DNA of 49,187 bases from Campylobacteraceae bacterium (GTDB lineage: Bacteria > Campylobacterota > Campylobacteria > Campylobacterales > Sulfurovaceae). The position numbers were made by a program, and so were the translations under genes. Location of the stretch: positions 1 to 49,187 of the forward strand of contig JALVUD010000007.1 in assembly GCA_027035765.1 (NCBI GenBank), given 5' to 3'. The notes under the pieces were generated by a model. That model made no database searches and was not told the DNA's origin. It saw nothing but the letters and a program-made list of their open reading frames with translations. Positions 961 through 48,026 of the stretch are shown piece after piece (positions within the stretch are counted from its first letter, which is position 1; each line of letters begins with the position of its first letter).

Positions 961-1040
961 TCATTTCTTTTTTCTTTGTTTCGCGACAAAGAAAAAGGAA
1001 ACGAAGCAAAGAAAAAAGAAAACGCGAAGGGCTGACGTCC
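961..1040. repeat. Dispersed intergenic repeat, family 1 copy A
   Basis: A purine-rich tract containing an inverted repeat around TTTCGCGACAAAGAAA, followed by GAAACGAAGCAAAG and AACGCGAAGG-CTGACGTCC. A second nearly identical copy lies at 47948-48026 and a fragment at 27981-27999. It sits between genes and encodes nothing convincing. Confidence 0.7.
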
Positions 1041-28210: not shown

Positions 28211-30280
<2,070 letters not shown>

Positions 30281-30396
30281 TGGGGGAATTGTGGGTCAAT
30301 ACATCATGCCGATATGAGTTAAATTCAGGATAAAATCCTGATATTTTTTGAAAAATTAGGAATATAATCCGAATTTTGCTAGTTTAGAGCCATATC

Positions 30397-30434
30397 CATA
30401 ATACCGTGGATCCTGAATCAAGTTCAGGATAACG
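30397..30434. repeat. Dispersed palindromic repeat, family 2 (divergent copy)
   Basis: CCATAATACCGTGGATC followed by CTGAATCAAGTTCAG, an inverted repeat. It is a relative of the longer elements at 31605-31682 and 48052-48128, and forms the last codons of the HIT gene. Confidence 0.5.
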
Positions 30435-30810
30435 AGACGGCATCGAGTCTGACCCTGAGCGCTTCAGCAAAGGGGGCGAAAGGGGGCAGGTCGAGCTGCG
30501 CTTCTCTTTGACGCGTTCCCCACATAGGCTCGGGGAAGTAGCTGTCCTCCCGGAAGCGGGCCATGATGTGCCAGTGTTGCCTGGGCAGATAGTTGCCGAA
30601 GGAGGCGATATTGATCTTCTCAGGCCGGTAGTAGGCCAGCATCTCCTCCTCGATGGCCGCCAGCAGGTCCATCGTGCGGATCCGCAGGGCTCTGGGCATC
30701 CGGGAAAACTCCCGATACTCCGCCTTGGGGTGAAGGATCAGCCAGGGGATTTCGCTCTCGTGGCGCACCAGGCGAAAGTCGCCGTCTTTCCATATCGTCT
30801 CTTCGGTCAT
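30424..30810 (-). CDS. HIT-family nucleotide-binding protein
   Basis: 128 residues. NIASFGNYLPRQHWHIMARF contains the HIT motif in the form QHWHIMAR: two of the histidines are present, but the third is replaced, so catalysis may be altered. The early strands FRLVRHESEIPWLILHPK match the family. HIT proteins hydrolyse or transfer nucleotidyl groups. It is translationally coupled by ATGA to the downstream methyltransferase-like membrane protein. The C-terminus runs into a dispersed repeat. Confidence 0.8.
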   Translation of the reverse strand: MTEETIWKDGDFRLVRHESEIPWLILHPKAEYREFSRMPRALRIRTMDLLAAIEEEMLAYYRPEKINIASFGNYLPRQHWHIMARFREDSYFPEPMWGTRQREAQLDLPPFAPFAEALRVRLDAVSLS

Positions 30811-31553
30811 GATCGCTCCTTGGGCTTGAAAAAAGGAAGCAGCATCGGCACCCGTCGGCGGTAGTCGGCGTAGGGGGTGCCCAGAGTGCGGATCAGGTCC
30901 CGCTCTTCGAAGTAGAGGCCGATGAGGATGTAGAGGGTGAAGCCCAGGGCAAAGAGCAGATGCCCCGTGCTCATCACCGGCGTGGCCCAGAGCCCCAGGA
31001 GGGTTCCCGCCTGGATGGGGTGGCGCACCCAGCGGTAGAAGCCCCGCTCCTGGAAACGGGTCTCAGGCTCGGGGATCTGCCGCCAGCTCCGCCAGGCCTG
31101 GTGGAGCCCCAAGAGTCCGAAGTGGTCGATCTGAAAGGTGGCGATAACCGCGACGGTCCAGCCGAAGAGGTAGAGCGTCGTCATGACCCACCATCCGAGA
31201 CTCCCCTGGGGAAAGCTCCAGAGCGTTCCGGGCAGGGGCTGCCAATCGATCAGGATCGATGCCAGGAAAAAGGAGGAGATCAGGGTATAGGTGGCCCGCT
31301 GGGCGCCGGTGGGGATGTAGCGGTCCATCCAGGCTTTGAAGCGGGGCCGCACCATCAGGGAGTGTTGGAGCCCGAAGAGCAGGATCAGCCCCAGATCGAT
31401 GAGCAGAGCGGGGAGGGGAGCATCGGAGGTGCCGCTGTCGATAGTGCTGGGCATCCAGCTCCAGGGATAGACCCAGAGCAGCATATAGGTCAGGGTCCCC
31501 AGGCCGATCAGATAGCCGACGATCCCGTAGAGCAGTAGCAGATGGCGTTTCAT
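30807..31553 (-). CDS. NnrU/MddA-like membrane methyltransferase family protein
   Basis: 248 residues with six or so membrane helices (LLLYGIVGYLIGLGTLTYML, ALLIDLGLILLFGLQHSLM, LLFALGFTLYILIGLYF). The C-terminal GFYRWVRHPIQAGTLLGLWA and YFEERDLIRTLGTPYADYRRRVP are the SAM-binding signature of the isoprenylcysteine/phospholipid methyltransferase superfamily, closest to methanethiol S-methyltransferase (MddA) and NnrU. Likely an inner-membrane thiol or lipid methyltransferase; the substrate is not deducible. It precedes HIT with an ATGA overlap. Confidence 0.8.
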   Translation of the reverse strand: MKRHLLLLYGIVGYLIGLGTLTYMLLWVYPWSWMPSTIDSGTSDAPLPALLIDLGLILLFGLQHSLMVRPRFKAWMDRYIPTGAQRATYTLISSFFLASILIDWQPLPGTLWSFPQGSLGWWVMTTLYLFGWTVAVIATFQIDHFGLLGLHQAWRSWRQIPEPETRFQERGFYRWVRHPIQAGTLLGLWATPVMSTGHLLFALGFTLYILIGLYFEERDLIRTLGTPYADYRRRVPMLLPFFKPKERS

Positions 31554-31604
31554 CGATCGTTCCTTTTATCGGTTGAGTAAGAAAAATATCAAGGACAAAT
31601 TTTT

Positions 31605-31682
31605 GTCATGCCAAACCTGATTCGGAATCCACGGTATTATAGGCAATTAAGGCCCTGGATTCCGGGTCAAGCCCGGAATGAC
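31605..31682. repeat. Dispersed palindromic repeat, family 2 copy
   Basis: Starts GTCATGCCAAACCTGATTCGG, split here after 20 bases, and ends CTGGATTCCGGGTCAAGCCC-GGAATGAC. The two ends are each inverted repeats and related to each other. A close copy lies at 48052-48128. Confidence 0.75.
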
Positions 31683-31725
31683 GGGTTCAATCCGCGAGGA
31701 AATAATTTGCCTCTGATCCTATTCG

Positions 31726-32322
31726 TTAGGAAGCGACGAGCCTTTCGAAAAGGGCGCTGCCCAGGACTTTGTAGCGGATAGGGGGTGCGAAGCGATCCTC
31801 CCAGCGCACTCCGCCGATGATGGCCACGGGGTGGCGGGAGTGCCGGGCGATGCTTAGCAGCTCTTCGCCCCGCACTTCGGCGTCACTTTTGGTGGCAGTA
31901 GGGCGGTAGGCTCCCAGGCCGATGTAGTCCAGCTTCAGGGTGTTGGCGGTCTCGATCTCGGAGAGGTTATGGGTGGAGAGCCCCAGGATCTTCTCCCCGA
32001 TCCGCTCCCGCACCCGGCTCACCGCCTCGGCGGGATCGGGGGCGACGGCGGCCAGGTCCTCCTGCCCCAGATGGAGCCCGTCGGCCAGAGGGACGAGGTC
32101 GAGGCGGTCGTTGACGATGAGGGTGCCGCCGTAGCTTCGGCGCAGCGCTTCGAGCGCCTCGGCTACCGTTTCATCGCTTGCGCTTTTGTCCCGGTACTGG
32201 GCGATAGGGATCTTCTCGCTCTCCAGGAAGCGCCCCACCTGCTCGGGGGAGAGGGTGTAGCGTTTCAGCAGCTCGGCATCGATGAGGGCATAGACGGCGG
32301 TCTCGTCCGGCATAGGCGGCAT
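31726..32322 (-). CDS. thiE: Thiamine phosphate synthase
   Basis: 198 residues. QYRDKSAS, GTLIVNDRLDL, GLHLGQEDL, GLSTHNLSE, YIGLGAYRPTATKS and VAIIGGVRWE reproduce the order of phosphate- and pyrophosphate-binding motifs of ThiE, which joins hydroxymethylpyrimidine diphosphate to thiazole phosphate. Two M codons at the start (MPPMP) leave the first three residues uncertain. No other thi gene is adjacent. Confidence 0.88.
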   Translation of the reverse strand: MPPMPDETAVYALIDAELLKRYTLSPEQVGRFLESEKIPIAQYRDKSASDETVAEALEALRRSYGGTLIVNDRLDLVPLADGLHLGQEDLAAVAPDPAEAVSRVRERIGEKILGLSTHNLSEIETANTLKLDYIGLGAYRPTATKSDAEVRGEELLSIARHSRHPVAIIGGVRWEDRFAPPIRYKVLGSALFERLVAS

Positions 32323-32426
32323 AGGGATCTCCCTGAGCGATTTTTGGCATTATAGCAGGTATAGAGAGATGTCAGAGGGGTGTTGGTCGCTGCCGGGATC
32401 GGCAGCGGAGGCGGCGGAAGGCCGGC

Positions 32427-32648
32427 TTACTTTTTCTTCTTGCCGGTTCCGACGACAAAGGAGATCTTGGCGACGACTCGGTAGGTGGTGATCTTGCCGC
32501 CGTCGACTTTGGCGCTCATGTCTTTGATGTAGATGGATTTGATGTTGTCCACGCTTTTGGAGGCCTCTTTGACCGCATTGGCCGCGGCATCCTCCCAGCT
32601 CTTTTTGGATTGGGCGATCACTTCGATCACTTTGACGACACTTGACAT
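32427..32648 (-). CDS. Dodecin family flavin-binding protein
   Basis: 73 residues. VVKVIEVIAQSKKSWEDAAANAVKEAS and SIYIKDMSAKVDGGKITTYRV are typical: one beta-strand, one helix, then two strands that assemble a hollow dodecamer storing flavin. The usual flavin-stacking Trp is present in SWEDA. A Lys-rich tail (GTGKKKK) ends it. Preceded by AAAGGAG. Confidence 0.92.
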   Translation of the reverse strand: MSSVVKVIEVIAQSKKSWEDAAANAVKEASKSVDNIKSIYIKDMSAKVDGGKITTYRVVAKISFVVGTGKKKK

Positions 32649-32825
32649 TTTGTCTCCTTTCGATGGGGATAGTTCTATTATAGCTCAGAAATCTCTGCGC
32701 TGTTTATTCCCTCACATTTTCTTCTACCGGGAACGCACTGCAGGGGCCGCCGGAAGGGCGTTGAACCGAGGGCGGAATCATACACCGGATATGGAACCCA
32801 GGTCACAATCCACGCCATCGATACG

Positions 32826-32834
32826 TGCTACAAT
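32826..32834 (+). promoter_or_regulatory. Extended -10 (TGCTACAAT)
   Basis: TG-C-TACAAT, 30 bp before the small membrane protein start. Confidence 0.55.
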
Positions 32835-32863
32835 CTATCCATCATCCCTCCAAGGAGAGCTTT

Positions 32864-33301
32864 ATGAAAACCTTCGTGATCCTTGTTTCGACTGCAGTAG
32901 CACTCGGCGCGTTGCTTGCGGGTATCTATTTCATTCCCGTCGGCTGGGTATTGTTGATCGCGCTTGCTTTTATGGGTGCCTTCATCATTACGGACCAAAA
33001 AACGCTGGCGCTCGGCGTGGTGCTCGCGATGTTCCTTTTCGGCGCCATTTTGCCCTTCAAGCACAATATCTACCACATCTCTCAGCATGTGGCGCTCCAA
33101 GGCCGCCAGGTCATCGATCTGGATACGAAAACGACCTACCGGATCGTCTCCGACCTTTTCGAGCAGAGCAAACCGGATGCCAATGCAAGCAAAAAAATCG
33201 CTTGCCAACACGCGACCCTCTTCGGACGTACCCTTGCGGATCATTTCTGTTATTTCATCGACGGAGACAAGATTTACGAACTCAAAGTGGCGAAAGAGTA
33301 G
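32864..33301 (+). CDS. Small membrane protein of unknown function
   Basis: 145 residues: three hydrophobic stretches in the first 65 (FVILVSTAVALGALLAGIYF, VGWVLLIALAFMGAFII, LALGVVLAMFLFGAILPF), then a soluble tail with strands VIDLDTKTTYRIVSDLF and a cysteine pair (IACQH, HFCYF). I do not recognise a family. ATG after AAGGAGAG with its own promoter, so it is probably a real gene. It is the last gene before the CRISPR trailer end. Confidence 0.65.
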   Translation: MKTFVILVSTAVALGALLAGIYFIPVGWVLLIALAFMGAFIITDQKTLALGVVLAMFLFGAILPFKHNIYHISQHVALQGRQVIDLDTKTTYRIVSDLFEQSKPDANASKKIACQHATLFGRTLADHFCYFIDGDKIYELKVAKE

Positions 33302-33640
33302 TACGAAGTAGTGGAAGAAAAGAAAGAATTATCATCTTTTACAGTGATAAGAGTGATAAGAAGGTAGAGGAGGGAGGGCAATCACGGATCCCAATTACTT
33401 CAACCTCCTCTAACAAAAAAATTTAGTACAAAACATGAATGGCGTCAAGATAGGTATCTTCTCTGGGCGTGTTCCACATTTTACCCTTGTCGAGTCTCTG
33501 CGCCCGGCGGGAGCCTTGAAGATCTATAACCTGACTCAGAAGGGTGGACTGATGTGGCGAGCGTTTGTCAGCAGGTGTTGCATAGATTCAATCCTCACCC
33601 GCCAGAGACGGCGCGTGAACTGGTCAGATGCGAAACGTAT
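33302..33640. other. Gene-free spacer at the CRISPR trailer end
   Basis: No supported gene. It is A/T-rich near 33302-33435. GGCGCGTGAAC at 33610-33620 looks a little like the end of a CRISPR repeat but is too short to count. Confidence 0.5.
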
Positions 33641-36600
33641 TTTCTAAGCTGCCTGTGCGGCAGTGAACGAAGCGACCGGGGCTTCCTCGGTACAGGGTTG
33701 TTTCTAAGCTGCCTGTGCGGCAGTGAACCACATGACAGCGTGAGAGGTGCGCGGGAGCAGTTTCTAAGCTGCCTGTGCGGCAGTGAACGATCAGGAGCCC
33801 CGATATCAGCACAATAGATATTTCTAAGCTGCCTGTGCGGCAGTGAACTTGCAGCACTTGTTGGAATGGTTGTAAATTATTTTCTAAGCTGCCTGTGCGG
33901 CAGTGAACACGGGGGGCAGCTGCAATGCAATTACGACACATTTCTAAGCTGCCTGTGCGGCAGTGAACGGTACATGTCGTTGTGAGGCCGGTAAAGTAGA
34001 TTTCTAAGCTGCCTGTGCGGCAGTGAACACCCATAATGTAACTCAACTGGCAATAGTACATTTCTAAGCTGCCTGTGCGGCAGTGAACGGAGCGTTTTGG
34101 CGACGCCGGCGGACGGCGCGTTTCTAAGCTGCCTGTGCGGCAGTGAACGCCCATTAGATCGTCCTGCGGGACGGTCGTGTTTTCTAAGCTGCCTGTGCGG
34201 CAGTGAACACGATCACCAAGTCTCGGCGGGGATACAACGTTTTCTAAGCTGCCTGTGCGGCAGTGAACCCGGCCCAGCTCCGAAAGCTCCGTCTCCTTCA
34301 TTTCTAAGCTGCCTGTGCGGCAGTGAACGAAGCGACCGGGGCTTCCTCGGTACAGGGTTGTTTCTAAGCTGCCTGTGCGGCAGTGAACCCCAAGGGGCTC
34401 TTTGCCGAAATGGACAGGGATTTCTAAGCTGCCTGTGCGGCAGTGAACTTTTCCTTTCGTTGCTGTTTTGAGTCTATTTATTTCTAAGCTGCCTGTGCGG
34501 CAGTGAACTCCAGGAGCGTCAAAAATTCAAATCAGAAAAATTTCTAAGCTGCCTGTGCGGCAGTGAACGTTCCGGTTCGTCACCATCTCGGTTTCGATCT
34601 TTTCTAAGCTGCCTGTGCGGCAGTGAACCACATGACAGCGTGAGAGGTGCGCGGGAGCAGTTTCTAAGCTGCCTGTGCGGCAGTGAACTTGACGATTTTG
34701 GGGAGCATTTTGTCGTAGAATTTCTAAGCTGCCTGTGCGGCAGTGAACACGACGACCGGCCGGGCCGCCTCGACGGCGATTTTCTAAGCTGCCTGTGCGG
34801 CAGTGAACCCATAGTGTTTGGTCCAACCGTTGCCGCTCAGTTTCTAAGCTGCCTGTGCGGCAGTGAACGAGGTAGAAAACGTTGTTTGCGCTGGCATCGA
34901 TTTCTAAGCTGCCTGTGCGGCAGTGAACTATAGCGTTTGGATTGTTTGTCGTATATGGTTTTTCTAAGCTGCCTGTGCGGCAGTGAACAAAACCGTCTTT
35001 ATTATCTTGATCCAACTGATTTTCTAAGCTGCCTGTGCGGCAGTGAACTGAAAAAGTGGAGCATGAGATCCGGCCTCACTTTTCTAAGCTGCCTGTGCGG
35101 CAGTGAACATCGCCGGGGCGGGGTCCGCGATGATGCTGGCTTTCTAAGCTGCCTGTGCGGCAGTGAACTGGCTATCCTCGGTCTGATCGTTACTGGTTTG
35201 TTTCTAAGCTGCCTGTGCGGCAGTGAACTAGTGGGCGTCAGATCCCCTTGCCACGGTTGATTTCTAAGCTGCCTGTGCGGCAGTGAACAATGAACAGCAA
35301 AATAGGATTTACCGGATCCATTTCTAAGCTGCCTGTGCGGCAGTGAACTCACTCTCCACCTTTTTGTTTAGCGCGGCTATTTTCTAAGCTGCCTGTGCGG
35401 CAGTGAACCCTTTTCGGCCCGCTTGATGATGTCAAGGGCCTTTCTAAGCTGCCTGTGCGGCAGTGAACGATTTGGCCTTTTCCCACCCTTTGCCGATCCA
35501 TTTCTAAGCTGCCTGTGCGGCAGTGAACCCGAGCTGATCGACGCTCAGGCGCTTGGGGTTTTTCTAAGCTGCCTGTGCGGCAGTGAACGCTCTATGTGCT
35601 GATCTTTCGCGGGGTTCTGATTTCTAAGCTGCCTGTGCGGCAGTGAACCACAGAATCCGGTAGGAGAATTGATGCTATCATTTCTAAGCTGCCTGTGCGG
35701 CAGTGAACTGGGCGCTCATCAGTAGAGCTGCCACGGCTGGTTTCTAAGCTGCCTGTGCGGCAGTGAACGAGGACAAGAAAAATCAACACAATAACCATTA
35801 TTTCTAAGCTGCCTGTGCGGCAGTGAACTAATTGCGTCTGTTGCGGTTGTTGCAGTTGTTTTTCTAAGCTGCCTGTGCGGCAGTGAACGGTGCTGTTCTT
35901 GTCGCTGCTGCTGTTATGTGTTTCTAAGCTGCCTGTGCGGCAGTGAACTTTGGCTACAAGCCGGAGCAACAGGTGCTGGATTTCTAAGCTGCCTGTGCGG
36001 CAGTGAACCGTTTGATAAATTCGAGCACATTGATGACTTTTTTCTAAGCTGCCTGTGCGGCAGTGAACAAGTGCGGGGATTACCTCTTTTTCGAGGGTCC
36101 TTTCTAAGCTGCCTGTGCGGCAGTGAACACAAGATTGAACCAATGGTCCGGTTGAGAAATTTTCTAAGCTGCCTGTGCGGCAGTGAACTAAGATAGAGCC
36201 GCTTGGATGAGGATTTGATCTTTCTAAGCTGCCTGTGCGGCAGTGAACCCCAGGTGCTCTTGAGGCGGGTGGGGTGATGGTTTCTAAGCTGCCTGTGCGG
36301 CAGTGAACGACCGGACCACTTTTGAAGTGGACGGCTACACTTTCTAAGCTGCCTGTGCGGCAGTGAACAACGTCAACGCGAAGATCATCGTCGCGTATGT
36401 TTTCTAAGCTGCCTGTGCGGCAGTGAACGCTACGAAAACCAATATAGAAGAAAAATAAGCTTTCTAAGCTGCCTGTGCGGCAGTGAACGGCACTGGGAGA
36501 GGAAAGCGAAGTGTTCAGGTTTTCTAAGCTGCCTGTGCGGCAGTGAACTGGTGATATGCTTCGAGTGAATATTCGCAGGTTTTCTAAGCTGCCTGTGCGG

Positions 36601-37089
36601 CAGTGAACACATCCAAAACTTCACCACGCTTACCATCAGCGTTTCTAAGCTGCCTGTGCGGCAGTGAACTGATCAATACAATGATCCGAAAATCACAGAT
36701 ATTTCTAAGCTGCCTGTGCGGCAGTGAACTGACCAGGTAACGCATTCAACGGCTCCGTTTTTTTCTAAGCTGCCTGTGCGGCAGTGAACTGGTGGATCGA
36801 TCTGTGGGATTCGATCGCCAATTTCTAAGCTGCCTGTGCGGCAGTGAACCCGATCGAGTTCAGCGTCGAATCGGCGCTGGATTTCTAAGCTGCCTGTGCG
36901 GCAGTGAACCCTTCCATCTGCCCGACGAGGAAATCGTAGGATTTCTAAGCTGCCTGTGCGGCAGTGAACCCTGAAGGAGATCACGTATGACGAGGTTGTC
37001 ATTTCTAAGCTGCCTGTGCGGCAGTGAACAATATGAACTACTCCTGCAAGCGGTTGAAGCATTTCTAAGCTGCCTGTGCGGCAGTGAAC
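33641..37089 (-). CRISPR. Type I-F CRISPR array, 58 repeats and 57 spacers
   Basis: A 28-nt repeat recurs every 60 bp and all 58 copies look identical. In crRNA orientation (minus strand) it starts GTTCACTGCC-GCACA-GGCAG and ends CTTAGAAA, the type I-F form with the 5-5-5 Cas6f hairpin. All spacers are 32 nt except one of 33 nt at 36609-36641. Orientation of the hairpin, the cas operon and a promoter at 37115-37123 place the leader on the right, so spacers nearest 37089 are the newest. Spacers at 33669 and 34329 are identical, as are those at 33729 and 34629. Confidence 0.99.
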
Positions 37090-37114
37090 CGCAGAAAAAA
37101 AGAGGTAGAAAGCC

Positions 37115-37123
37115 ATTATATCA
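37115..37123 (-). promoter_or_regulatory. CRISPR leader promoter, extended -10
   Basis: Minus strand TGATATAAT (TG-A-TATAAT), 26 bp before the first repeat, so the pre-crRNA would begin about 18-20 nt upstream of repeat 1. Confidence 0.7.
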
Positions 37124-37168
37124 TAGGGTAAACGGCTTTTGAATTGAAAATACCAAAAAATGAGAGTT

Positions 37169-37203
37169 TTTACAGAAAGCCCATAATATGGGCTTTCTGT
37201 AAA
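37169..37203. repeat. Perfect 35-bp palindrome between cas6f and the array
   Basis: Seventeen-base arms (TTTACAGAAAGCCCATA and its complement) flank one central A. It lies 17 bp after the cas6f stop and about 45 bp upstream of the leader -10. It could be the cas operon terminator, though the nearest minus-strand T run is about 10 nt away, or a protein-binding site in the leader. Confidence 0.85.
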
Positions 37204-37219
37204 GGTGAGAAAAAAAAGG

Positions 37220-37849
37220 TCAAAAATCAGGAAGCGTGGGGCATTTGCTCAAATCAAATTCCTTGGAATTTTTGGCTTGGTCGCATTTGCTTAAACCAAA
37301 GGTAGTAAATTTTCCTTCTCGTGGAAATTCGACCGTCCCTTTGGCAATGAAAATTCGCGTTTTTTGCCCCGTCGAAGTACTATGGAAATTAAAATAGGGG
37401 AGTTTGTTGTTTTGGATTTTTTCGTCGGTATCGAAAGTTGCATATCGTTGCAACGCTTCCTCATAAGAAACTCCGTGTCGCTTGGCATAGCGCCTGGCCT
37501 GGCGTAGGGGATTGGTCTTGAACTGTTTGCGGCGAAAGACGACATGACCGTGTTCAGCCGGGGTTTGTCGGATTTCTGAGATTTTGACATAGTCGGCTAA
37601 GTCGGAAAGCATATTTTCCAAAGACAATTTTTCTAGTGTCGTTTCATCGGGAGCGAATACCCTCAAACGATCACCTAAAGGAAAATCGCCCCCGTAACGG
37701 GGGAAGGTAAATCCCACCGGCACAGCTCCTTCGGCATCCTTGAGAGGCACCAAGGCTTTGTGAAGCCGCTCGTAAAGTTTTTGCCAGATGAATCCCAAGG
37801 AGATTTCGGTGTCATCAAATAGACGGATCTCCCGATAGATCGGCATCAT
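37220..37849 (-). CDS. cas6f: CRISPR pre-crRNA endoribonuclease Cas6f (Csy4)
   Basis: 209 residues (208 from the second Met). YREIRLF begins the fold; YERLHKAL holds the catalytic His (29 from the second Met, as in Pseudomonas Csy4). RRKQFKTNPLRQARRYAKRH is the arginine-rich helix that grips the repeat hairpin, and FHSTSTGQKTRIFI holds the active-site Ser region. It cuts after the CTGCC-GCACA-GGCAG hairpin and stays bound. The end is unusual: where Csy4 normally finishes GLSK plus a short FVPWF-like tail, this protein has a 14-residue in-frame insertion giving two LSKC copies. It overlaps cas7f by ATGA. Confidence 0.95.
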   Translation of the reverse strand: MMPIYREIRLFDDTEISLGFIWQKLYERLHKALVPLKDAEGAVPVGFTFPRYGGDFPLGDRLRVFAPDETTLEKLSLENMLSDLADYVKISEIRQTPAEHGHVVFRRKQFKTNPLRQARRYAKRHGVSYEEALQRYATFDTDEKIQNNKLPYFNFHSTSTGQKTRIFIAKGTVEFPREGKFTTFGLSKCDQAKNSKEFDLSKCPTLPDF

Positions 37850-38874
37850 TTGTCACTCTCCCCGAAGACTCCGCCCCGCACCAGTACGGCCATGACATAG
37901 TGGCGCTGATCTTCATCGATATCTTCACCCGCGATCAGTTGATCAAAAAGGGTGAAAAAGTCCTCTTTGTTTTTGGGGTTGCGAAAGGCGCGCCCCAGGT
38001 TGGTGACCGCTCCGTAGGGTTCGACGGCGATGGGGCGTTGCTCTTCGATGTAGTCGCTGTACCAGGTATCGATGGTACGTAAGGCATTGCCGAGTTTTTG
38101 GGAGTGCATCGCCGCGATGCCGTCAACTTCGTAAAGCACCTTGCTTTTTTTGCCCTGACCTTTGTCCAGCACCAGCTCTTCGCTGGGATAGACCTCCTGG
38201 GCTTTGCCGATCTTGGCGTAGCAGACGATATCCAGAAGTAGGTAATCCTCCGTGGAAGCCAGCGTCTGGGCGATCAGCTCTCCAAGCTCGTTGACTGCAG
38301 CATCATCTTTGTCAAAATCACGGATGGGGTAGGATTTGGCATCGAAACGCCAGGTTTTTTGGTCTCTACCTTCATGATCCATCCGCGTCACGATCACCTC
38401 GATCTTTTCAGCTCCCACTCGGTTGCGCCAGAGGAAGCGGGCATTGGCCAGGTTCATCGCATAGCGGCAGCCCAGCTCTTTGAATCCCTCCTCTTCGATA
38501 TAGTTTTGCACAACCTTTTGATACGCTTTCAAAAATTCGGGTTCGTTACACGCCGACGGTTCCAGGAGATTGCCCAGCACCTTGAGAGTGAAATGGAGCT
38601 TGAGGGTGTCTTGATCCTCACCCAAAGCGCAGCTGTCAACGGTTTGCAGGTTGGGTTTTTCCACTTCGGCGTTGAGTTTGGCAGGATCGTTGGCGACGGC
38701 GGGTTTGAGGCGGTTGCTGATGGTGCCTCGTACCGATTTTTCTACCAGTTTCAGCGGTGTAGTGCTTCCCGTCTCATGCCGATTTTCCCAGGTCGTGCCA
38801 TAGAGATACCCGTCGGAAGGGACCAATTTTTTCTCGAATGCCAGAACGGAAACGGTGTTTTTTTTCTTTGCCAT
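37846..38874 (-). CDS. cas7f: CRISPR backbone protein Cas7f (Csy3)
   Basis: 342 residues. MAKKKNTVSVLAFEKKLVPSDG (first 20 diagnostic), LVEKSVRGTISNR, CRYAMNLANARFLWRNRVGA and SYPIRDFD are characteristic of Csy3. Six copies coat the spacer part of the crRNA in the Csy complex. ATG with AAGGAG; 3 bp after the cas5f stop. Length is normal for the family. Confidence 0.97.
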   Translation of the reverse strand: MAKKKNTVSVLAFEKKLVPSDGYLYGTTWENRHETGSTTPLKLVEKSVRGTISNRLKPAVANDPAKLNAEVEKPNLQTVDSCALGEDQDTLKLHFTLKVLGNLLEPSACNEPEFLKAYQKVVQNYIEEEGFKELGCRYAMNLANARFLWRNRVGAEKIEVIVTRMDHEGRDQKTWRFDAKSYPIRDFDKDDAAVNELGELIAQTLASTEDYLLLDIVCYAKIGKAQEVYPSEELVLDKGQGKKSKVLYEVDGIAAMHSQKLGNALRTIDTWYSDYIEEQRPIAVEPYGAVTNLGRAFRNPKNKEDFFTLFDQLIAGEDIDEDQRHYVMAVLVRGGVFGESDK

Positions 38875-38877
38875 GAT

Positions 38878-39744
38878 TTACTCCTTGGTTGATGTTTTGG
38901 TTTCACACAAATAGAGGGAAGTTTTTGCATCGTAGCGATACTCCCACAGCATTTCATCCAGACTTTCCAGGCGGTGGGGCATCCGAAACTCTCCCGTCGT
39001 CACCACGCTTTCGGCAAAGCGGTGCGGCGTGTCGGGATCGCGCTGGTTTTTTGCCCTGCCGAGCTGGGTGATCCCCATAAAGCCGATGGCGAGGGGGACA
39101 ATCCATCCCTCCTGGGTACGTCCCGACTGCCATACGACTTCATCCCCCTCTTCTTGGCATTGATGATGCACAGCCAGAATGTCAATGAGTGCATCCAGGG
39201 CATCGGCCCCATCTTGCATCTTCGCTTTCATCAGATCGCGCCGTTCGATCAATGCATAGCCGGGGCCGATGATACGCAGAAGTTTCGCAGGCTGATCGAT
39301 TGACGCGATCAGGGGCTTATCGAAACCTAGGATATCCCCGCTTGCCAGTTTCATTCGCCGTAATGTTTCGGAAACGAACGCAACAAGTCGGTCGCCGAGG
39401 TAATCCAGGTATCCTTCGCCTAGTTCAACAACTAGTGACACATCCAGATGGATACGTGCCTCTTCGATGAAGGAGGGACGCTCACCTTTTTGATCCAGCG
39501 GGTTGGCGGTGCCGACGATGGAAGCGACGAAATCCCCGGGACCGCGATAGGTGTGTAGATCGTAATCGTGACAGACGACCCCCACCGATGAAAAACGAAG
39601 CGCTTCGAGTCCGTCGCCAAGTTTTCGCTCCAACGCGTGCACTCCCCCCAGCCACGCCGTCATGGCGGGAAAACCCAGGGTATAGGGGCTGGAAAGCGCA
39701 TTGGCGTTTTGGATACGGATATGGGGAATGATCAGAGAGTTCAT
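38878..39744 (-). CDS. cas5f: CRISPR complex subunit Cas5f (Csy2)
   Basis: 288 residues. IIPHIRIQNANALSSPYTLGFPAMTAWLGGVHALERKL is the typical Csy2 start (the invariant HIxIxNANA and GFPA-TA-LG elements). It binds the crRNA 5' handle CTTAGAAA next to Cas8f. The start is fixed by ATGA overlap with cas8f; the longer frame runs back into cas8f and is not used. Confidence 0.95.
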   Translation of the reverse strand: MNSLIIPHIRIQNANALSSPYTLGFPAMTAWLGGVHALERKLGDGLEALRFSSVGVVCHDYDLHTYRGPGDFVASIVGTANPLDQKGERPSFIEEARIHLDVSLVVELGEGYLDYLGDRLVAFVSETLRRMKLASGDILGFDKPLIASIDQPAKLLRIIGPGYALIERRDLMKAKMQDGADALDALIDILAVHHQCQEEGDEVVWQSGRTQEGWIVPLAIGFMGITQLGRAKNQRDPDTPHRFAESVVTTGEFRMPHRLESLDEMLWEYRYDAKTSLYLCETKTSTKE

Positions 39745-41009
39745 CGTAGGGCCTCCTTGGATGCTTCGACACTTTCGCGGATATCGGCCAACTCTGCAGG
39801 CCCCAGTTTGAGCCCTTTGCGTTTGGTGTTGCTTTCGATCTGGTGCAGGATCCATCGGCTGATACGATCGATCAACTCATCGAGCCACGTATCCTGGGTC
39901 TCTCTTTGCTTCTTGTATTGTTCACAGAGCCAGATCTTTTGGTACTCAGGCAGCCTGGAATCTTCCTCTCGATACTGCTCAAAGCTGACGCTTCGCACCC
40001 GCATCATTTGCGTGATGATCAGATCCATCAACTGCTCGTAGCGATACTTACGTCCGCGGCGGATATCGACATTGTTGTAGTCGGTCGTGATGATCGCATC
40101 GAGGCTTTTTAGAATATCTCGGACTTTACGGTAGGGAAGCGATTCTGTAAAAAAGTCTTTTTTGGGAAAGCGTATCTTGCGCCGCTCGATCTTGGGCGGC
40201 AAGGAAGCCAGCAGATAGGCCTTGCCGCCGTAGCGGTTGTTGAGGACGGAGATGTTTTGGGGTTTTGTGCCGCCGTAGCCAATGACTGTCAGTTCGAAAA
40301 GCTCCTTGTAGTGCGGCGGTTCGATGCATTCGCTCTTTTTGCGGGCTTCACGTGCCGCTTTGGCTTCATCAGAGTAACGCAAATGATCGATACGCTCTTT
40401 GAGCTCAAAGACGATCCCCGAATTGGTCAAGATCGAAAGCAAGTGATATTCACGTCGGGCGATCGGGAAATAGACCTGTTTGATCTTGCTACTGGTAACC
40501 GTCTCGCTTTCACCCGCACCGATCATTGCCAAAAAGCCATCGCGAAGATTTTCGTAACTCTCGGTTGCGATATCCAAAAGCTTTCTGGCCAGAGGAGACT
40601 CATCCCGAATATGCTCGATCACCTTTTTGCCGTCATCAAGGAGCAGGTCGAGGAATTTATGTACATCCAGTACCGCCGCATTGCCCAAGGCATCGGTTTG
40701 TGCGCTTTTGACATTGCCGCAGCGAAGGAAACCATCCGGGGCTGCAGGCGCATCGCAAATGACCGGGGTGACATCTCCATTTTTGTTTTTGCGGCTGGAA
40801 GGGTGGGAAAAGGTACACGGGTGGGTGGCCATCGACATCTGTCCCGCCCGCCTGGCCGCATCGGGGAGCCAATGTTCGGGCAAAAACTTCTCCTCCGCCT
40901 CTTCATGAAGTCGCTGTACAGTCTCTTCGTCCATCGACTTTTTGATTTTTTGCTTGAGCCATGCCTCTTTCCGTTCATGAAAAAAGGCTTCGATGGTCGA
41001 TAAGCTCAT
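39741..41009 (-). CDS. cas8f: CRISPR complex large subunit Cas8f (Csy1)
   Basis: 422 residues. FFHERKEAWLKQKIKK at the start, ATHPCTFSHPSSRKN, SARRS-like YSDEAKAAREARKKS and PHYKELFELTVIGYGGTKPQNIS match Csy1. It recognises the CC PAM and, with Cas5f, holds the crRNA 5' handle. Start ATG with a perfect AAAGGAGG six bases upstream. It is the first gene of the four-gene Csy operon, whose promoter lies in the regulatory gap upstream. Confidence 0.95.
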   Translation of the reverse strand: MSLSTIEAFFHERKEAWLKQKIKKSMDEETVQRLHEEAEEKFLPEHWLPDAARRAGQMSMATHPCTFSHPSSRKNKNGDVTPVICDAPAAPDGFLRCGNVKSAQTDALGNAAVLDVHKFLDLLLDDGKKVIEHIRDESPLARKLLDIATESYENLRDGFLAMIGAGESETVTSSKIKQVYFPIARREYHLLSILTNSGIVFELKERIDHLRYSDEAKAAREARKKSECIEPPHYKELFELTVIGYGGTKPQNISVLNNRYGGKAYLLASLPPKIERRKIRFPKKDFFTESLPYRKVRDILKSLDAIITTDYNNVDIRRGRKYRYEQLMDLIITQMMRVRSVSFEQYREEDSRLPEYQKIWLCEQYKKQRETQDTWLDELIDRISRWILHQIESNTKRKGLKLGPAELADIRESVEASKEALR

Positions 41010-41028
41010 TGTCGACCTCCTTTATAAT

Positions 41029-41056
41029 GGATTTTCATGCCTATTCGGCAGTCGAC
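41029..41056 (-). repeat. Degenerate CRISPR repeat 3, in the cas8f leader
   Basis: 28 nt, 16 identical to the array repeat. On the minus strand it keeps CTGCC-GAATA-GGCAT, a Cas6f-like hairpin with the basal pair broken. It would be the very 5' end of the cas8f mRNA. Confidence 0.65.
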
Positions 41057-41063
41057 TTGTGAA

Positions 41064-41093
41064 AGTATAGCGTATGTATAAATATTAAGTCAA
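41064..41093 (-). promoter_or_regulatory. Promoter of the cas8f-5f-7f-6f operon
   Basis: Minus strand: TTGACT (41088-41093), 18-bp spacer, TATACT (41064-41069). The expected start point is about 41057, at the edge of degenerate repeat 3. This is the best -35/-10 pair in the window. Confidence 0.8.
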
Positions 41094-41097
41094 GTAT
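41078..41097 (-). promoter_or_regulatory. Predicted CreR target over the Csy operon -35
   Basis: ATACTTGACTTAATATTTAT on the minus strand, 18 of 20 identical to the guide at 41158-41177, with CC (41098-41099) directly 5', the type I-F PAM. It covers the -35 hexamer. The mismatches are at guide positions 10 and 18; positions 1-9 match. Confidence 0.8.
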
Positions 41098-41129
41098 GGC
41101 ATTTTATTTTTTGGCCGACCCCATTGAAA

Positions 41130-41157
41130 ACGTTTAGCTACCTATTCGGCAGTTGAC
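41130..41157 (-). repeat. Degenerate CRISPR repeat 2
   Basis: 28 nt, 18 identical to the array repeat. On the minus strand it reads GTCAACTGCCGAATAGGTAG then a diverged tail; the hairpin CTGCC-GAATA-GGTAG keeps five pairs with one G-U. Confidence 0.8.
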
Positions 41158-41177
41158 ATCAATATTAGGTCAAGTAT

Positions 41178-41205
41178 CTTCTAAGCTGCTATTTCTGCAG
41201 TCAAC
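41178..41205 (-). repeat. Degenerate CRISPR repeat 1
   Basis: 28 nt, 21 identical to the array repeat, including GCAGCTTAGAA that forms the crRNA 5' handle. The hairpin is CTGCA-GAAAT-AGCAG, four pairs with an A-A mismatch at the top. It starts where the TATAAT upstream would begin transcription. Confidence 0.85.
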
Positions 41206-41211
41206 GATTCA

Positions 41212-41241
41212 ATTATACCTATTTCTGTTCAAAAAGCCCAA
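41212..41241 (-). promoter_or_regulatory. Promoter of the predicted CreR RNA
   Basis: Minus strand: TTGGGC (41236-41241), 18-bp spacer, TATAAT (41212-41217) lying just past the cas2-3 stop. Start point about 41205, the first base of degenerate repeat 1. Confidence 0.65.
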
Positions 41242-44200
41242 ACTGATCATGATACCGATATTCGATGTTTCCGATATCCGACTCTTTATAAACCTGCCAG
41301 CTGATCTCTCCGAAGCGTAGTGTGAGCCCTTGAGGCGACAGGTTAAAAAGCTCACTGTAGCGCTCGATGATGCTTTCATAGTCTCTTTCAAGCCAAAACC
41401 GCTCGCTTGGTTCGAGATCGATCACCCGGATACCCAGCGCCTCTTCCCGATCGACGGGATGTCCCTCCTCATCCAGCTCGGCGAAATAGATACGATCTTT
41501 CTCTTCGTCGTAGACCCGATAGCATTTGATAGTGGGAGAGCTTTTGCGAAAGGGGTGGTAGTGCATCGGCATGGCCGTCAGGTGCCACTGCCCCCGCAAA
41601 AAGCCTTCCAGTTTCGCGGCGTAGGGGTTGTCGTATTGTGTCAGCCACTGCGCCACGGCGAAATGCTCCAGGTCGGCCAGCCGTTTCGTCGGCTCCAAAG
41701 GTTCGTTTTTTCGGATTCTGGGGATCGCATCGATCGTCGCTCGGATCGCCGCTTCATCGACAAGCTGCTTCATGTCGTGGGTGCTCAGCGTAGTATCCAC
41801 TTCAAATCCGGGTCGAACGAAATAGCGCTTGCCGCTTCGATCCCCGTCCGAGAAGGCTCGATAGTTGTATCGCAAGATAGCGATATTGGGTTTTTCGATT
41901 TCGCCTATGCGGTGCCTGCGTACTCGCCCCGCCAGCTGGATGATGGAGCGGTACGAAGAGGGCTCCACCACCGCCCAGTCGAAATCGTGGTCTCTCCCCA
42001 CCTCTTCTACCGGCGTGGCGACGACGACAAAGAGGATATCGTCATGCCGTGCGCGATCGATATGGTGCCGGAGTATGGGATCGTTCAAAATGGCCGCATC
42101 GCTTTCGTTTTCATTTTTGCGTTTGAGAAGTTTGTCCAGATAGCGCTCCTGATCGTGGCGCATCAGAAGCACCTGCTGGGAGTGATAGACCATAAAACGC
42201 AGATCGAAATCTTTTAACGGAGTGTACAAAAGATGGTATCCCAGCTCCACGCACGGGGTGATGTTGGCCATACGCACCACCCCTACAGAGATCCGTTTGC
42301 CGCTTATCGGATCGACGAGATGGTGATCGCGGTGGAGCCGATACATCTGCGCCACGATGTCGGCGAAGTAGGACTTGGTATCGTGAGGTTCTTCGGGTTT
42401 TAGATCGGTGATGATGCCGCGACGTTTGGGCGGAAGAGCTTGGAGTTTTTTGACCCGTGCATCGATGAAGCGGCGATGGACTTTCCGATACACCTCTTGC
42501 GACTTTGCATCGACGGGTATCGCTTGGTGATCGCTTTTGAACTCGTCACACCAAAAGGCGTCGATCATTCCGTCCGCACCGTCGTGTGAGTCAGCAAAGA
42601 TGCGCCATCCCATGCTGTAGGCATGGAAAAAGCCTTCGGCCAGATCGGGCGGGATCGTCGCCGATGAGATCATCACTTTGCGCCCCAGCATCCCGGCCAG
42701 AAAAACGAGTCGCCCGATGGCGATGAGGTCCGATTCGACAAAATCATCGATCTCGTCGATGACGATGTCCGAACTCATCAGACGCAAAGCCGGCAGCAGC
42801 CAACGTCCTCCTTTGGGGGTATCCACCGCGCCCATAAGATGATCGATCGTCGCTACCAAAACAGGGACGTAGAGAATCTTGCGCTCTTTTTCACCCCGCA
42901 AAACGGTAGAGAGATAGCCTTCATCCACCGGCACGTCGTAGATCACCTCTTCATCCGTCAGCTCCTCCAGAGATTCGCTTCCGGCCGCTTCGGGATCCAG
43001 GGGCGACTTGTCAAGCTCTTCTTTCGATGCGGCATGCAGTTGGATGGTCGCTTTGGAGCCGATCACCACGGCCATATCTTCGCTCTGAAGTCCCAGACGC
43101 GAACGGTACTCATCCCCCGTTTGCAAGGTCAACGTACGCAACCCCAGAGCCAGGATATAGCGCAAACTTTTCGCATCACTCGAGAGCGCACGCATGATTT
43201 TGGCGTTGGCGATCGTTTTTCCCATGCCGGTGCTGGCCATATTGACGGCGAAAAATCCCCGTTTTCGCTCTTTGGGATTGTAAAATTCGGCAATTTTGCG
43301 TACCGCTTTGTCTTGCCAGGCAAAGGGGGCAGGCGAGGGTTTGCGTAGTTTGGCGACCTTCCGGCTTTGCGGCAACTCTTCCCGCAACAGCGGCAATCGA
43401 TAGAGAATCGAAAGCGCGGTTTTACATACACCGCACAGGTGTTCATCGAGCCGCTGATTGAAGGTTTTGTTTTTGCGGTCGGTATTGGCAAAAAGCTCTA
43501 CGGTTTTTGGCCATGTAGGATTTGCAGTTTGAGCGGAGTAGTTGTGATCGCCCAGCATCAAAGCCAGGCGACTATGGTGCAAAATGTAGCGTAGCATTCC
43601 GTTTTCTTCGGCCATTTTCAACCGATCTTCGGCGTTGGTCAGCCGATGCACCCATCGTTTGAGCTCGGCGCGCCATTTGTGCGACTCCAAAAGGAGTCCC
43701 TGGGGAAATTCCAAACAGGGCGCTTCGTTTTCCTTGACGTTTTGATACCCCCAACTTTCGGATACAGTATAAAAAAACGCCTCCAGGTGGGGCAAGGGGC
43801 TCTCTTTGCCCACCTCTCTGTCTTTGTCATTCAATAGCGGCAAACGGTGATGTGAGAGGATCTGCCAGGCGATCAGCTGTGCATCCAAGGGCAGTGTCGC
43901 GAATGCTTCAAAACGAAATGTTTTGAGCTTTTTGAGGATGGAAGCCGTATCCATGTGATCATTGAGAATGCGCTCTTTCCAGGTATCCGGGTCGATGGAG
44001 ACAAAACTACCCAAAAGCATCACGCTGACCCACTCGTGACGCAATGCGTCGGCTTTAATCGATGAATCCCGTAGTTTCTCCTGAAAGCAGCGGCTTGCTT
44101 TGCCCCAATCGTGAAAAAGCGCGGCAACGGCCGTCAGCGCTTTCATCAGATCCATATCTCTCCAGTCGTTCTCTTCGTAGAGTTTGAGCAAATCGATGGA

Positions 44201-44479
44201 GGTGCGATGTACGGGAACAATGCCTTGAGTGTTGAATTTTTCCCGATTGCCCACGATCCACAACAGATCGCTGCGGCTGCGGCTTCGGATCCAGTGGCAG
44301 GCGACGGCGGTGTTTTTGATGGCGGTGCGCCGTAGCAGTTTGTGTACGGTGTTTAGCCCCTCTTTAGTGATGACGGTGCGCCAGGTATTGGTGCCGATAC
44401 GGTCGGCGAAACTATCGAGGATGCGGCGGGTGCGCTTGAGAGCCCCTTTTTCACATTCGGAGACAAAGATCACCATCAT
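41219..44479 (-). CDS. cas3: CRISPR Cas2-Cas3 fusion nuclease-helicase (type I-F)
   Basis: 1086 residues. The N-terminal about 90 form the Cas2 domain (MMVIFVSECEKGALKRTRRI). The HD nuclease follows with LFHDWGKASR (His123, Asp124). The superfamily 2 helicase has ASTGMGKTIANAK (Walker A), VIDEIDDF (DExH-type), MISSATIPPD (motif III), VATPVEEVGRDHDFDW and QLAGRVRRHR (motif VI). It degrades targets recruited by the Csy complex and, through Cas2, joins Cas1 in spacer integration. The start ATG overlaps the cas1 stop in CATGATGG. Length is usual for I-F. Confidence 0.96.
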   Translation of the reverse strand: MMVIFVSECEKGALKRTRRILDSFADRIGTNTWRTVITKEGLNTVHKLLRRTAIKNTAVACHWIRSRSRSDLLWIVGNREKFNTQGIVPVHRTSIDLLKLYEENDWRDMDLMKALTAVAALFHDWGKASRCFQEKLRDSSIKADALRHEWVSVMLLGSFVSIDPDTWKERILNDHMDTASILKKLKTFRFEAFATLPLDAQLIAWQILSHHRLPLLNDKDREVGKESPLPHLEAFFYTVSESWGYQNVKENEAPCLEFPQGLLLESHKWRAELKRWVHRLTNAEDRLKMAEENGMLRYILHHSRLALMLGDHNYSAQTANPTWPKTVELFANTDRKNKTFNQRLDEHLCGVCKTALSILYRLPLLREELPQSRKVAKLRKPSPAPFAWQDKAVRKIAEFYNPKERKRGFFAVNMASTGMGKTIANAKIMRALSSDAKSLRYILALGLRTLTLQTGDEYRSRLGLQSEDMAVVIGSKATIQLHAASKEELDKSPLDPEAAGSESLEELTDEEVIYDVPVDEGYLSTVLRGEKERKILYVPVLVATIDHLMGAVDTPKGGRWLLPALRLMSSDIVIDEIDDFVESDLIAIGRLVFLAGMLGRKVMISSATIPPDLAEGFFHAYSMGWRIFADSHDGADGMIDAFWCDEFKSDHQAIPVDAKSQEVYRKVHRRFIDARVKKLQALPPKRRGIITDLKPEEPHDTKSYFADIVAQMYRLHRDHHLVDPISGKRISVGVVRMANITPCVELGYHLLYTPLKDFDLRFMVYHSQQVLLMRHDQERYLDKLLKRKNENESDAAILNDPILRHHIDRARHDDILFVVVATPVEEVGRDHDFDWAVVEPSSYRSIIQLAGRVRRHRIGEIEKPNIAILRYNYRAFSDGDRSGKRYFVRPGFEVDTTLSTHDMKQLVDEAAIRATIDAIPRIRKNEPLEPTKRLADLEHFAVAQWLTQYDNPYAAKLEGFLRGQWHLTAMPMHYHPFRKSSPTIKCYRVYDEEKDRIYFAELDEEGHPVDREEALGIRVIDLEPSERFWLERDYESIIERYSELFNLSPQGLTLRFGEISWQVYKESDIGNIEYRYHDQFGLFEQK

Positions 44480-45420
44480 GGCCGTACTCCGAAACGCTGG
44501 GCGATCGCTTCGACCTGATCGAAAAGAAAGCTCAACGCCCCGTGCTCGACAAAGCGCTGCAGGCACTGGGTACGGAAGGTCTGGTCTTCCACCCCCTCTT
44601 TGGCGCTGATAAAGGCCTGGGGCAGTACGATGGCATCCTTGATGAGATCGGCGATATCGAATACCAAGGCGCCCCGACGGGTTTTGCCGTGCATCAGGGC
44701 AAAGGCGTGAGGGATACCCAGCGCCCAGAGCGTTGTGGCGGCCATCCCGTAGGCCAGGTAGTTGCCGTGATCCAGAAAGTCGTTGGCCGGATCGGCGTTG
44801 TTGCGCTCTCGGGTAAAGCCCGACATTCCCGTCTGCTTGGCGGCGAATTTGTAGAGTCGCTTGGTCAAATCGGCTTCGAGTTGCAAAAGCTTGCCCGTAT
44901 TGGGTGCTTGATCGATCTTTTTTGAAAACCCATCCACCATCTTTTCGATCGCTTCCGCTTCAAAGCCTTCCATGCGGAAATCGCGATCTTTGCGCCACAC
45001 ACGCAGAATAAAGGCAAGGCGCTCTTTTTGCAGCGCTTTGGCCGCTTCGAGTCGTTTGGCTTCGTCGAACCAAAACGAAAGCCAGCGCTGCACATACTCG
45101 GTGGGGCGGTATTCGCTCTGGGGCGTGAGCCACTCGATCTCGGCACCCATAAACAGCGGCGTCGCCCCTCCTCCGCAAAAACCGACCAGTACGCCGGCTT
45201 GCGAGAGCATCCGCATGGCCGCCTGGGTGACGGAGGTGCCCGTGCCAAGCAGCAGGCAGGTGGTGTTGGCGATGGGGAGGTTCCAGTAGCGATTGTCTTT
45301 TTTGTCTTCGCTCAGATAGACCACGCGCCCATCTTTTTGCATGACGCGGCACATTTCCAGGTAGTAGATATTGGCCCGCTTGGAGTGCAGGATCGCTTTG
45401 AGGTCGGTGAGTTGGTCCAT
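44476..45420 (-). CDS. cas1: CRISPR integrase Cas1 (type I-F)
   Basis: 314 residues. LKAILHSKRANIYYLEMCRVMQKDGRVVYL is the I-F Cas1 start; FCGGGATPLFMGAEIEW, NDFLDHGNYLAYGMAATTLWALGIPHAFALMHGKTRRGALVFDIADLIKD carry the catalytic Glu/His/Asp region (His of HGKTRRG, Asp of FDIADL). It inserts new spacers next to the leader, with Cas2-3. It is the first gene of the cas1-cas2-3 unit, with its own extended -10. Confidence 0.96.
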   Translation of the reverse strand: MDQLTDLKAILHSKRANIYYLEMCRVMQKDGRVVYLSEDKKDNRYWNLPIANTTCLLLGTGTSVTQAAMRMLSQAGVLVGFCGGGATPLFMGAEIEWLTPQSEYRPTEYVQRWLSFWFDEAKRLEAAKALQKERLAFILRVWRKDRDFRMEGFEAEAIEKMVDGFSKKIDQAPNTGKLLQLEADLTKRLYKFAAKQTGMSGFTRERNNADPANDFLDHGNYLAYGMAATTLWALGIPHAFALMHGKTRRGALVFDIADLIKDAIVLPQAFISAKEGVEDQTFRTQCLQRFVEHGALSFLFDQVEAIAQRFGVRP

Positions 45421-45452
45421 TATGTTGTCTACTCTTCCTTGATAGTGAAAAA

Positions 45453-45461
45453 ATTATAGCA
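45453..45461 (-). promoter_or_regulatory. Promoter of cas1-cas2-3, extended -10
   Basis: Minus strand TGCTATAAT (TG-C-TATAAT), 32 bp before the cas1 start. Confidence 0.7.
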
Positions 45462-45532
45462 ATAAACTAAGTTTTTATATACAAGAGATGATTAAAAAAC
45501 TTTGTAAAACTACAATCATATAGGACTGAATA

Positions 45533-45961
45533 TTAGACATCTAGATCCGTAAAATCCGTCAACTCTTTATCTTTAGCGTACTCTTTTTTCATGGACTCTA
45601 CTGCCTTATGTTGATCGCTTTGCTCTTTCGGAGAGGAAGAGCTTCCACACTCCCCATCCACCCACCTCAAATATCCCTCCGATCCGCCGGTCACCGGGAT
45701 CGCCAGGATCTCCGGGGTGTCGTAGGGGTGGTGGCGCAGGAGGAGGGCTTGGAGGGCGTCGTAGCGGTCGGTGCGGGTTTTGATCTCCAGGCGGTATTCG
45801 TCGGCCGATTCCAGCCGGCCCTCCCAGCGGTAGAGGCTGTGTATCGGCACGATCTGGATGCAGGCGGCCAGGCGGGCCTCCAGGATCGTGCGGGCGAGGA
45901 ACTCCGCTTTGGCGCGGTCGTCGACGGTGGTGTGGACGATGAGGTATTCGGAAGCTTTCAT
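45533..45961 (-). CDS. cutA: CutA-like divalent ion tolerance protein with a C-terminal tail
   Basis: 142 residues. EYLIVHTTVDDRAKAEFLARTILEARLAACIQIVPIHSLYRWEG and EIKTRTDRYDALQALLLRHHPYDTPEILAIPV are the CutA1 signature, a trimeric PII-like fold. CutA proteins normally end soon after the YLRWVDGE-like helix (about 105-112 residues); here about 32 charged residues follow (SSSSPKEQSDQHKAVESMKKEYAKD...), probably a disordered tail. The physiological ligand of CutA is uncertain despite its name. Confidence 0.88.
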   Translation of the reverse strand: MKASEYLIVHTTVDDRAKAEFLARTILEARLAACIQIVPIHSLYRWEGRLESADEYRLEIKTRTDRYDALQALLLRHHPYDTPEILAIPVTGGSEGYLRWVDGECGSSSSPKEQSDQHKAVESMKKEYAKDKELTDFTDLDV

Positions 45962-46009
45962 ACCCCGATTGTACCAGCACTTCTCAGGAGATTGTTTACC
46001 CTCCCGAAC

Positions 46010-47947: not shown

Positions 47948-48026
47948 TCATTTGTTTTTCTTTGTTTTCGCGACAAAGAAAAACGAAACGAAGCAAAGAA
48001 AAAGAAAACGCGAAGGACTGGCGTCC
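47948..48026. repeat. Dispersed intergenic repeat, family 1 copy B
   Basis: Near-identical to 961-1040, including the TTTTCGCGACAAAGAAAA inverted core and the AACGCGAAGGACTGGCGTCC end. Confidence 0.75.

Follow-up and report, generated by a model that had tools for sequence, protein, structure and literature searches.

A perfect palindrome in the leader of a Campylobacteraceae type I-F CRISPR array: a candidate symmetric DNA-bending site in the slot of the IHF-distal site

The leader of a type I-F CRISPR array in a Campylobacteraceae bacterium contains a perfect 35-bp palindrome, which we propose, with a probability of roughly 55% judged from sequence comparison, to be the central element of the distal half of the leader, where it would stand in for the IHF-distal site as a symmetric site of DNA bending. 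It is most likely an elaboration of a symmetric element that is conserved in the I-F leaders of bacteria without a recognisable IHF, and it may have a second role in termination.

Results

A perfect palindrome within the leader of a complete type I-F locus

The window (the whole stretch of DNA analysed, 49,187 nt) carries a complete type I-F locus on its minus strand, in the order cas1f, cas3f, csy1, csy2, csy3, cas6f, leader and array. The features of this locus are as follows:

37846–45420, minus strand: csy3, csy2, csy1, cas3f and cas1f, the remaining I-F operon, with cas1f first
37220–37849, minus strand: cas6f (csy4), matching TIGR02563 with 118 bits against a cut-off of 36
37090–37219, minus strand: leader, the 130 bp between the cas6f stop and the first repeat
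37115–37143, minus strand: leader promoter-like site TTCAAA-17-TATAAT with TG before the second hexamer (extended -10), between palindrome and array
33641–37089, minus strand: type I-F CRISPR array with 58 identical repeats and 57 spacers, the repeats matching Rfam RF01317

The first repeat occupies 37062–37089, and the ~130 bp that separate it, an I-F repeat, from the I-F cas genes are placed as a type I-F leader is. Near the leader-distal end of the array two spacers are duplicated (33669–33700 is identical to 34329–34360, and 33729–33760 to 34629–34660), which suggests an internal duplication of the array. Within the leader, the palindrome and its core were located as follows, with negative positions counted from the first repeat:

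37169–37203, no strand assigned: perfect palindrome with 17-bp arms and a 1-nt centre at 37186; leader positions -114 to -80, centre -97
37175–37197, no strand assigned: conserved core GAAAGCCC-ATATTAT-GGGCTTTC, holding the Campylobacterota anchors AAA, CC, GG and TT at offsets 9–11 and 5–6 from the axis

The two 17-nt arms (37169–37185 and 37187–37203) are 100% complementary and 1 nt apart, and on the plus strand the palindrome reads TTTACAGAAAGCCCATA-A-TATGGGCTTTCTGTAAA. It starts 16 bp past the cas6f stop, within the 130-bp leader and upstream of the leader promoter. An earlier note on this DNA had placed it between the cas6f stop and the array promoter, and the positions of the stop (37220) and of the promoter-like site (37143–37115) on the minus strand agree with this. 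The same note had held that a 17-bp arm pair is far beyond chance, which was borne out in three ways. In 449,187 bp sampled from the genome (the window plus 20 stretches of 20 kb, out of 2.03 Mb), no other perfect inverted repeat with a loop of up to 8 nt was as long as the palindrome, the runner-up having arms of 14 bp. The longest arms seen in three first-order Markov simulations of equal size were 13 bp, versus 17 bp for the palindrome. Finally, the RNA fold of the 43-nt palindrome stretch (-23.6 kcal/mol, z -8.8) was equalled by 0 of 200 shuffles.

When the 23-bp core was searched against the whole genome, one place matched free of mismatches and the remaining 15 places had 3 mismatches, so that the core is single-copy; a reading of the palindrome as a repetitive element was dropped on this ground. 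A reading as a known RNA family was likewise set aside, as within 36900–37600 only the CRISPR repeats scored above the gathering threshold and the matches over the palindrome fell below it. A separate palindromic element, TTTTTCTTTG-loop-CAAAGAAAAA flanked by GAAAC/TGAAG, has five copies in the 449-kb sample (window 969–996 and 47954–47984; L087 11438, L096 11515 and L097 15617).

Outer motifs provide a frame for comparing leaders

I-F loci were gathered by Csy3, which gave 55 loci in named genomes, and also by Csy4, in draws that overlap and that cover 100 relatives, 397 members of the class, 175 members of the family and 398 members of the order. Of the loci in named genomes, we left out those that lacked a cas6f match or a repeat in reach, L001 and L017, which duplicate the window and G002, L034, in which a repeat-like match stands 8 bp past the stop, and L031, whose regular repeats come only after 763 bp. 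The remaining 39 loci comprise 30 gammaproteobacterial and other and 9 from Negativicutes, and among them L028, L061 and L067 have no outer motif pair by the rule used. For Campylobacterota there were 18 complete leaders, reduced to 16 by the removal of G063 (L081) and G641 (L118), which also have no outer pair by this rule; the pair of L118, at -146/-78, lies just outside the rule, and its best dyad at -110.5 is 0.5 bp from the midpoint of that pair. L045 and L114, whose contigs end before the array, were used only for the distance from ACC to dyad.

In many loci the cas6f stop lies 128–131 bp before the first repeat, because a conserved leader motif, TGACC plus an A/T run, overlaps the stop codon; in loci where the stop is further off, TGACC still holds its distance to the repeat. 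A second leader motif near -63, GGT or GGGT with A-rich flanks, forms an inverted pair with the ACC near -130, and the distance between the two is 67 or 68 bp in 15 of the 16 Campylobacterota leaders and 66 bp in the window. The corresponding motifs in the window are:

37209–37220, minus strand: distal outer motif ACCTTTTTTTTC, with its ACC at -131 to -129 and an overlap with the cas6f stop codon
37152–37163, minus strand: proximal outer motif TCATTTTTTGGT (GGT at -65 to -63), complementary to the distal motif at 4 of 12 positions

This complementarity of the window's motifs is the lowest among the leaders scored (a 6/12 pair exists at the wrong spacing), and the outer ACC/GGT inverted repeats are clear in most other leaders of the Campylobacterota group. 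In P. aeruginosa, IHF folds the leader, and Cas2 residues R55 and N56 contact conserved I-F inverted repeat motifs (PMC12259127). We infer that the ACC and GGT motifs are these Cas2-contacted repeats, drawing on passages of PMC12259127 that describe the repeats without giving their sequence.

By eye, the proximal motif of at least 8 of the 18 Campylobacterota leaders reads TGGTATAAT at about -64 to -56, which is an extended -10 element, and promoter and integrase motif may overlap in these leaders. The promoter of the window lies further downstream than this position.

A dyad with fixed letters lies at the midpoint of the outer motifs in Campylobacterota leaders

The axis of the window's palindrome, at -97, coincides with the midpoint of its ACC (-131) and GGT (-63). 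This midpoint is set by the outer motifs alone, so that its agreement with a dyad is a fair test. Of the 16 Campylobacterota leaders, 8 have their best dyad no more than 1 bp from the midpoint, where shuffles predict 1.09; the figures are 2 of 9 leaders (0.62 predicted) for Negativicutes and 1 of 27 (1.76 predicted) for the gammaproteobacterial and other leaders. The leaders behind these counts are related by descent and so not independent. The comparison of related I-F leaders, which the earlier note had put forward as a check, supports a dyad core with fixed letters in Campylobacterota, but with the best dyad off the midpoint in the remaining eight. Pairing at offsets 4–8 about the midpoint axis was 0.637 in this group, versus 0.300 on average and 0.487 at most for 28 shifted axes. 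In the two leaders cut by contig ends, the dyad centre lies 34.5 and 35.0 bp from ACC (34 in the window); the former is L045, the nearest locus, in which the dyad has 9-bp arms. L045 belongs to a genome (G574) of another family of the order, and its Csy3 is 85% identical to that of the window, compared with 72–73% for two loci of the same genus, which likely reflects horizontal transfer of the cas locus.

Across the 16 Campylobacterota leaders the dyad takes the form AAA..CC-(A/T-rich)-GG..TT. On the left, A is present in 14, 14 and 15 leaders at -11, -10 and -9 from the midpoint, and C in 14 and 16 at -6 and -5; on the right, G is present in 13 and 15 at +5 and +6, and T in 14 and 15 at +9 and +10. 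No further conserved columns were found between 12 and 24 on either side of the midpoint in these leaders. At offsets 5, 6, 9 and 10 a single Watson-Crick pair type (CG or AT) occurs, in 13 of 16 leaders each and with no compensatory type, a pattern closer to what protein half-sites would show than to a stem maintained by compensatory change. At offsets 4 (CG 5, TA 4), 7 (GC 3, CG 3, TA 1) and 8 (AT 5, GC 4) the pair types change on both sides, as would fit a paired stem.

Symmetric half-sites with fixed letters would suit any homodimer, including a dimeric regulator that binds the palindrome as an operator and controls the cas genes or the leader promoter ~30 bp downstream. A perfect dyad directly upstream of a good promoter is consistent with such an operator, which we nevertheless consider improbable, as the core is single-copy in the genome and an operator would not account for the spacing relative to the midpoint between ACC and GGT. 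A second operator half-site was also considered, since GGCTTTCT recurs near the -10 element of the promoter, and was rejected, as 7% of shuffles match that recurrence.

The arms beyond ~11 bp are not conserved, and are found only in the window and in G057, where 14-bp arms flank a 7-nt centre, again giving a length of 35 nt. The length of these arms, and the 1-nt centre in the window, would favour extrusion of the dyad as a cruciform under negative supercoiling, which could bring the outer motifs together without sequence-specific bending; HU, moreover, binds cruciforms. The dyads of most other leaders, however, are imperfect and short and would not extrude, yet their letters are kept, and we consider extrusion very improbable.

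In three genomes, G099 (L117), G633 (L121) and G511 (L110/L151), other genes lie between cas6f and the leader, and the core letters are still kept; the best dyad is off the midpoint in all three, and the intervening genes still point towards the leader. In G099 and G633 these are two small genes with a by-eye likeness to a nucleotidyltransferase/HEPN pair. G063 has neither an outer motif nor a dyad. When arrays at a distance from cas6f, in which a function in the leader could be told apart from termination, were sought in 19 genomes by a junction pattern, which also matched inside arrays and is blind to leaders with other letters, the leader-like matches inspected were all on contigs with cas6f.

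The dyad occupies the slot of the IHF site in genomes without recognisable IHF subunits

In leaders of the IHF type, the IHF consensus in the central slot is WATCAANNNNTTR. Of the 27 gammaproteobacterial and other leaders, 18 have a match to this consensus that starts within 1 bp of the midpoint and has at most one mismatch, as do 2 of the 9 leaders from Negativicutes and 0 of the 16 from Campylobacterota. The best match in the window's leader has 3 mismatches and lies elsewhere in the leader, outside the central slot. The two Negativicutes leaders with a midpoint dyad (L060 and L062) both keep an IHF-like sequence inside the dyad, and are perhaps intermediates between an IHF site and a dyad.

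Models for IHF-beta and IHF-alpha scored over their curated cut-offs in 9 of 9 IHF-type genomes (those of L021, L023, L026, L042, L043, L053, L067, L068 and L069), but in 0 of 19 Campylobacterota and 0 of 5 Negativicutes genomes. The window's genome has no match to TIGR00987 or TIGR00988 above cut-off; it encodes two HU/IHF-family proteins below all cut-offs, so that a heterodimer is possible. At E ≤ 0.001 the beta model has one match in 16 of 19 Campylobacterota genomes, probably a single HU-type gene in each, two in the window's genome and in G012, and three in G055. HU has low sequence specificity, which weighs against an HU-type site.

In its place the palindrome resembles the IHF-distal site in the I-F leaders of Pseudomonas, Pectobacterium and their relatives, which also lies between the outer motifs, starting at their midpoint, at a distance of ~97 bp to the first repeat. 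It differs from that site in being symmetric rather than asymmetric, in having no IHF consensus, and in belonging to a genome with no IHF subunit over cut-off.

A possible terminator could account for part of the evidence

A stable hairpin past the last gene of an operon could also be an intrinsic (Rho-independent) terminator, which would end the cas operon and shield the leader promoter through a 16-pair hairpin past cas6f, with RNA polymerase halting in the T-containing right arm. The hairpin, 16 bp past the cas6f stop, is very stable, and ranks third in stability among the 40-nt folds of 174 sampled regions downstream of genes; five of the eight bases after GGGC are T. At the same place the closest locus, L045, shows AAAAGCCCGCAAAAACGGGCTTTT, which has the classical A-stem-T form, and the variation in pair types at offsets 4, 7 and 8, where 7 to 9 of the 16 leaders pair, is of the kind seen in stems. 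In having a stable stem after the last cas gene, and in its resemblance to L045, the palindrome is like an intrinsic terminator of the form AAAAGCCC...GGGCTTTT.

Unlike such a terminator, it has no uninterrupted T tract straight after the stem; its T tract is broken (TTTCTGTA) and lies inside the right arm, and its position and letters are fixed to the leader motifs. The T run had previously been judged poor for a terminator, and the scans concur: the palindrome is absent from the 19 terminator-like sites found in 30000–46000, a count equal to that of shuffles (mean 19.4), and across the 16 leaders the bases right of the core are no richer in T (4.06 of 8) than those left of it are in A (4.25 of 8), so that a T-tract asymmetry in the leader sense is absent. 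Strict stem-plus-T sites followed 1 of 202 sampled genes (control 1 of 202), though with crude gene calls this says little about the termination habit of the genome. Several cores fold weakly over 55 nt (L117 -1.8, L119 -3.1, L083 -4.0 and L121 -5.0 kcal/mol), and a terminator has no need to sit on the midpoint of distant motifs or to keep its letters at offsets 5, 6, 9 and 10. Moreover, 19 of 19 gammaproteobacterial and other loci with the cas6f stop 128–131 bp from the array have no significant best dyad (L056 alone reaches P 0.02 if the core position only is scored), and ending the cas transcript at this place is therefore no general need. The palindrome may also insulate the array from the cas operon, as the earlier note further suggested; the RNA hairpin is very stable, but these equally spaced loci have no such dyad. 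We regard a terminator as a fairly unlikely main function, and the palindrome may terminate transcription as a second role.

Discussion

The bending site that we favour would work as follows. In Campylobacterota leaders the dyad core sits at a fixed place midway between the ACC near -130 and the GGT near -63, in the slot of the IHF consensus; the outer motifs would act as the inverted repeats that the Cas2 dimer of Cas1-Cas2/3 touches with its two faces. Campylobacterota hosts seem to be without the IHF heterodimer, and the DNA would therefore be bent at the dyad by an architectural protein that is itself symmetric, most likely a homodimer of the HU type, allowing both motifs to reach the integrase and spacers to enter at the first repeat. 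Central to the proposal is the expectation that a homodimer prefers a symmetric site. In the window, the core would have been lengthened into a palindrome that is perfect over 35 bp, perhaps when template switching corrected an imperfect version, and its hairpin in the RNA may contribute to ending the cas transcript. The earlier note had raised an integration-host site that guides Cas1-Cas2-3; position speaks for this (an axis on the midpoint of the outer motifs, the IHF slot, and a fixed-letter dyad in other Campylobacterota), and protein binding is what we infer from it.

A broader version of the proposal, which we hold more tentatively, is that the distal leader as a whole is two-fold symmetric: an HU-type (or cruciform) bend site would share its axis with the Cas2-contacted repeats, the I-F platform would have been rebuilt on a homodimer in the absence of IHF, and the palindrome described here would be the perfect 35-bp form of that site.

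In the I-F leader of A. baumannii, 60 bp gave no detectable acquisition and 80 bp almost none, while at least ~100 bp gave a high rate, and an A-rich leader region was needed, for which IHF binding was suggested (PMC9602844). Set beside this length requirement, the palindrome spans -80 to -114. Our literature search found no paper on Campylobacterota I-F leaders; key papers on leader motifs were outside its reach, and we make no claim that the element is unpublished.

These results caution against taking each hairpin behind a cas operon for a terminator. In the systems studied, spacer integration by type I-F depends on IHF, but Campylobacterota and Negativicutes also carry I-F loci, in genomes that here showed no IHF subunit over cut-offs. 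How the leader is folded in those bacteria is a natural question, and a symmetric element of fixed position in the IHF slot opens it to a direct test with a single leader and a single purified protein.
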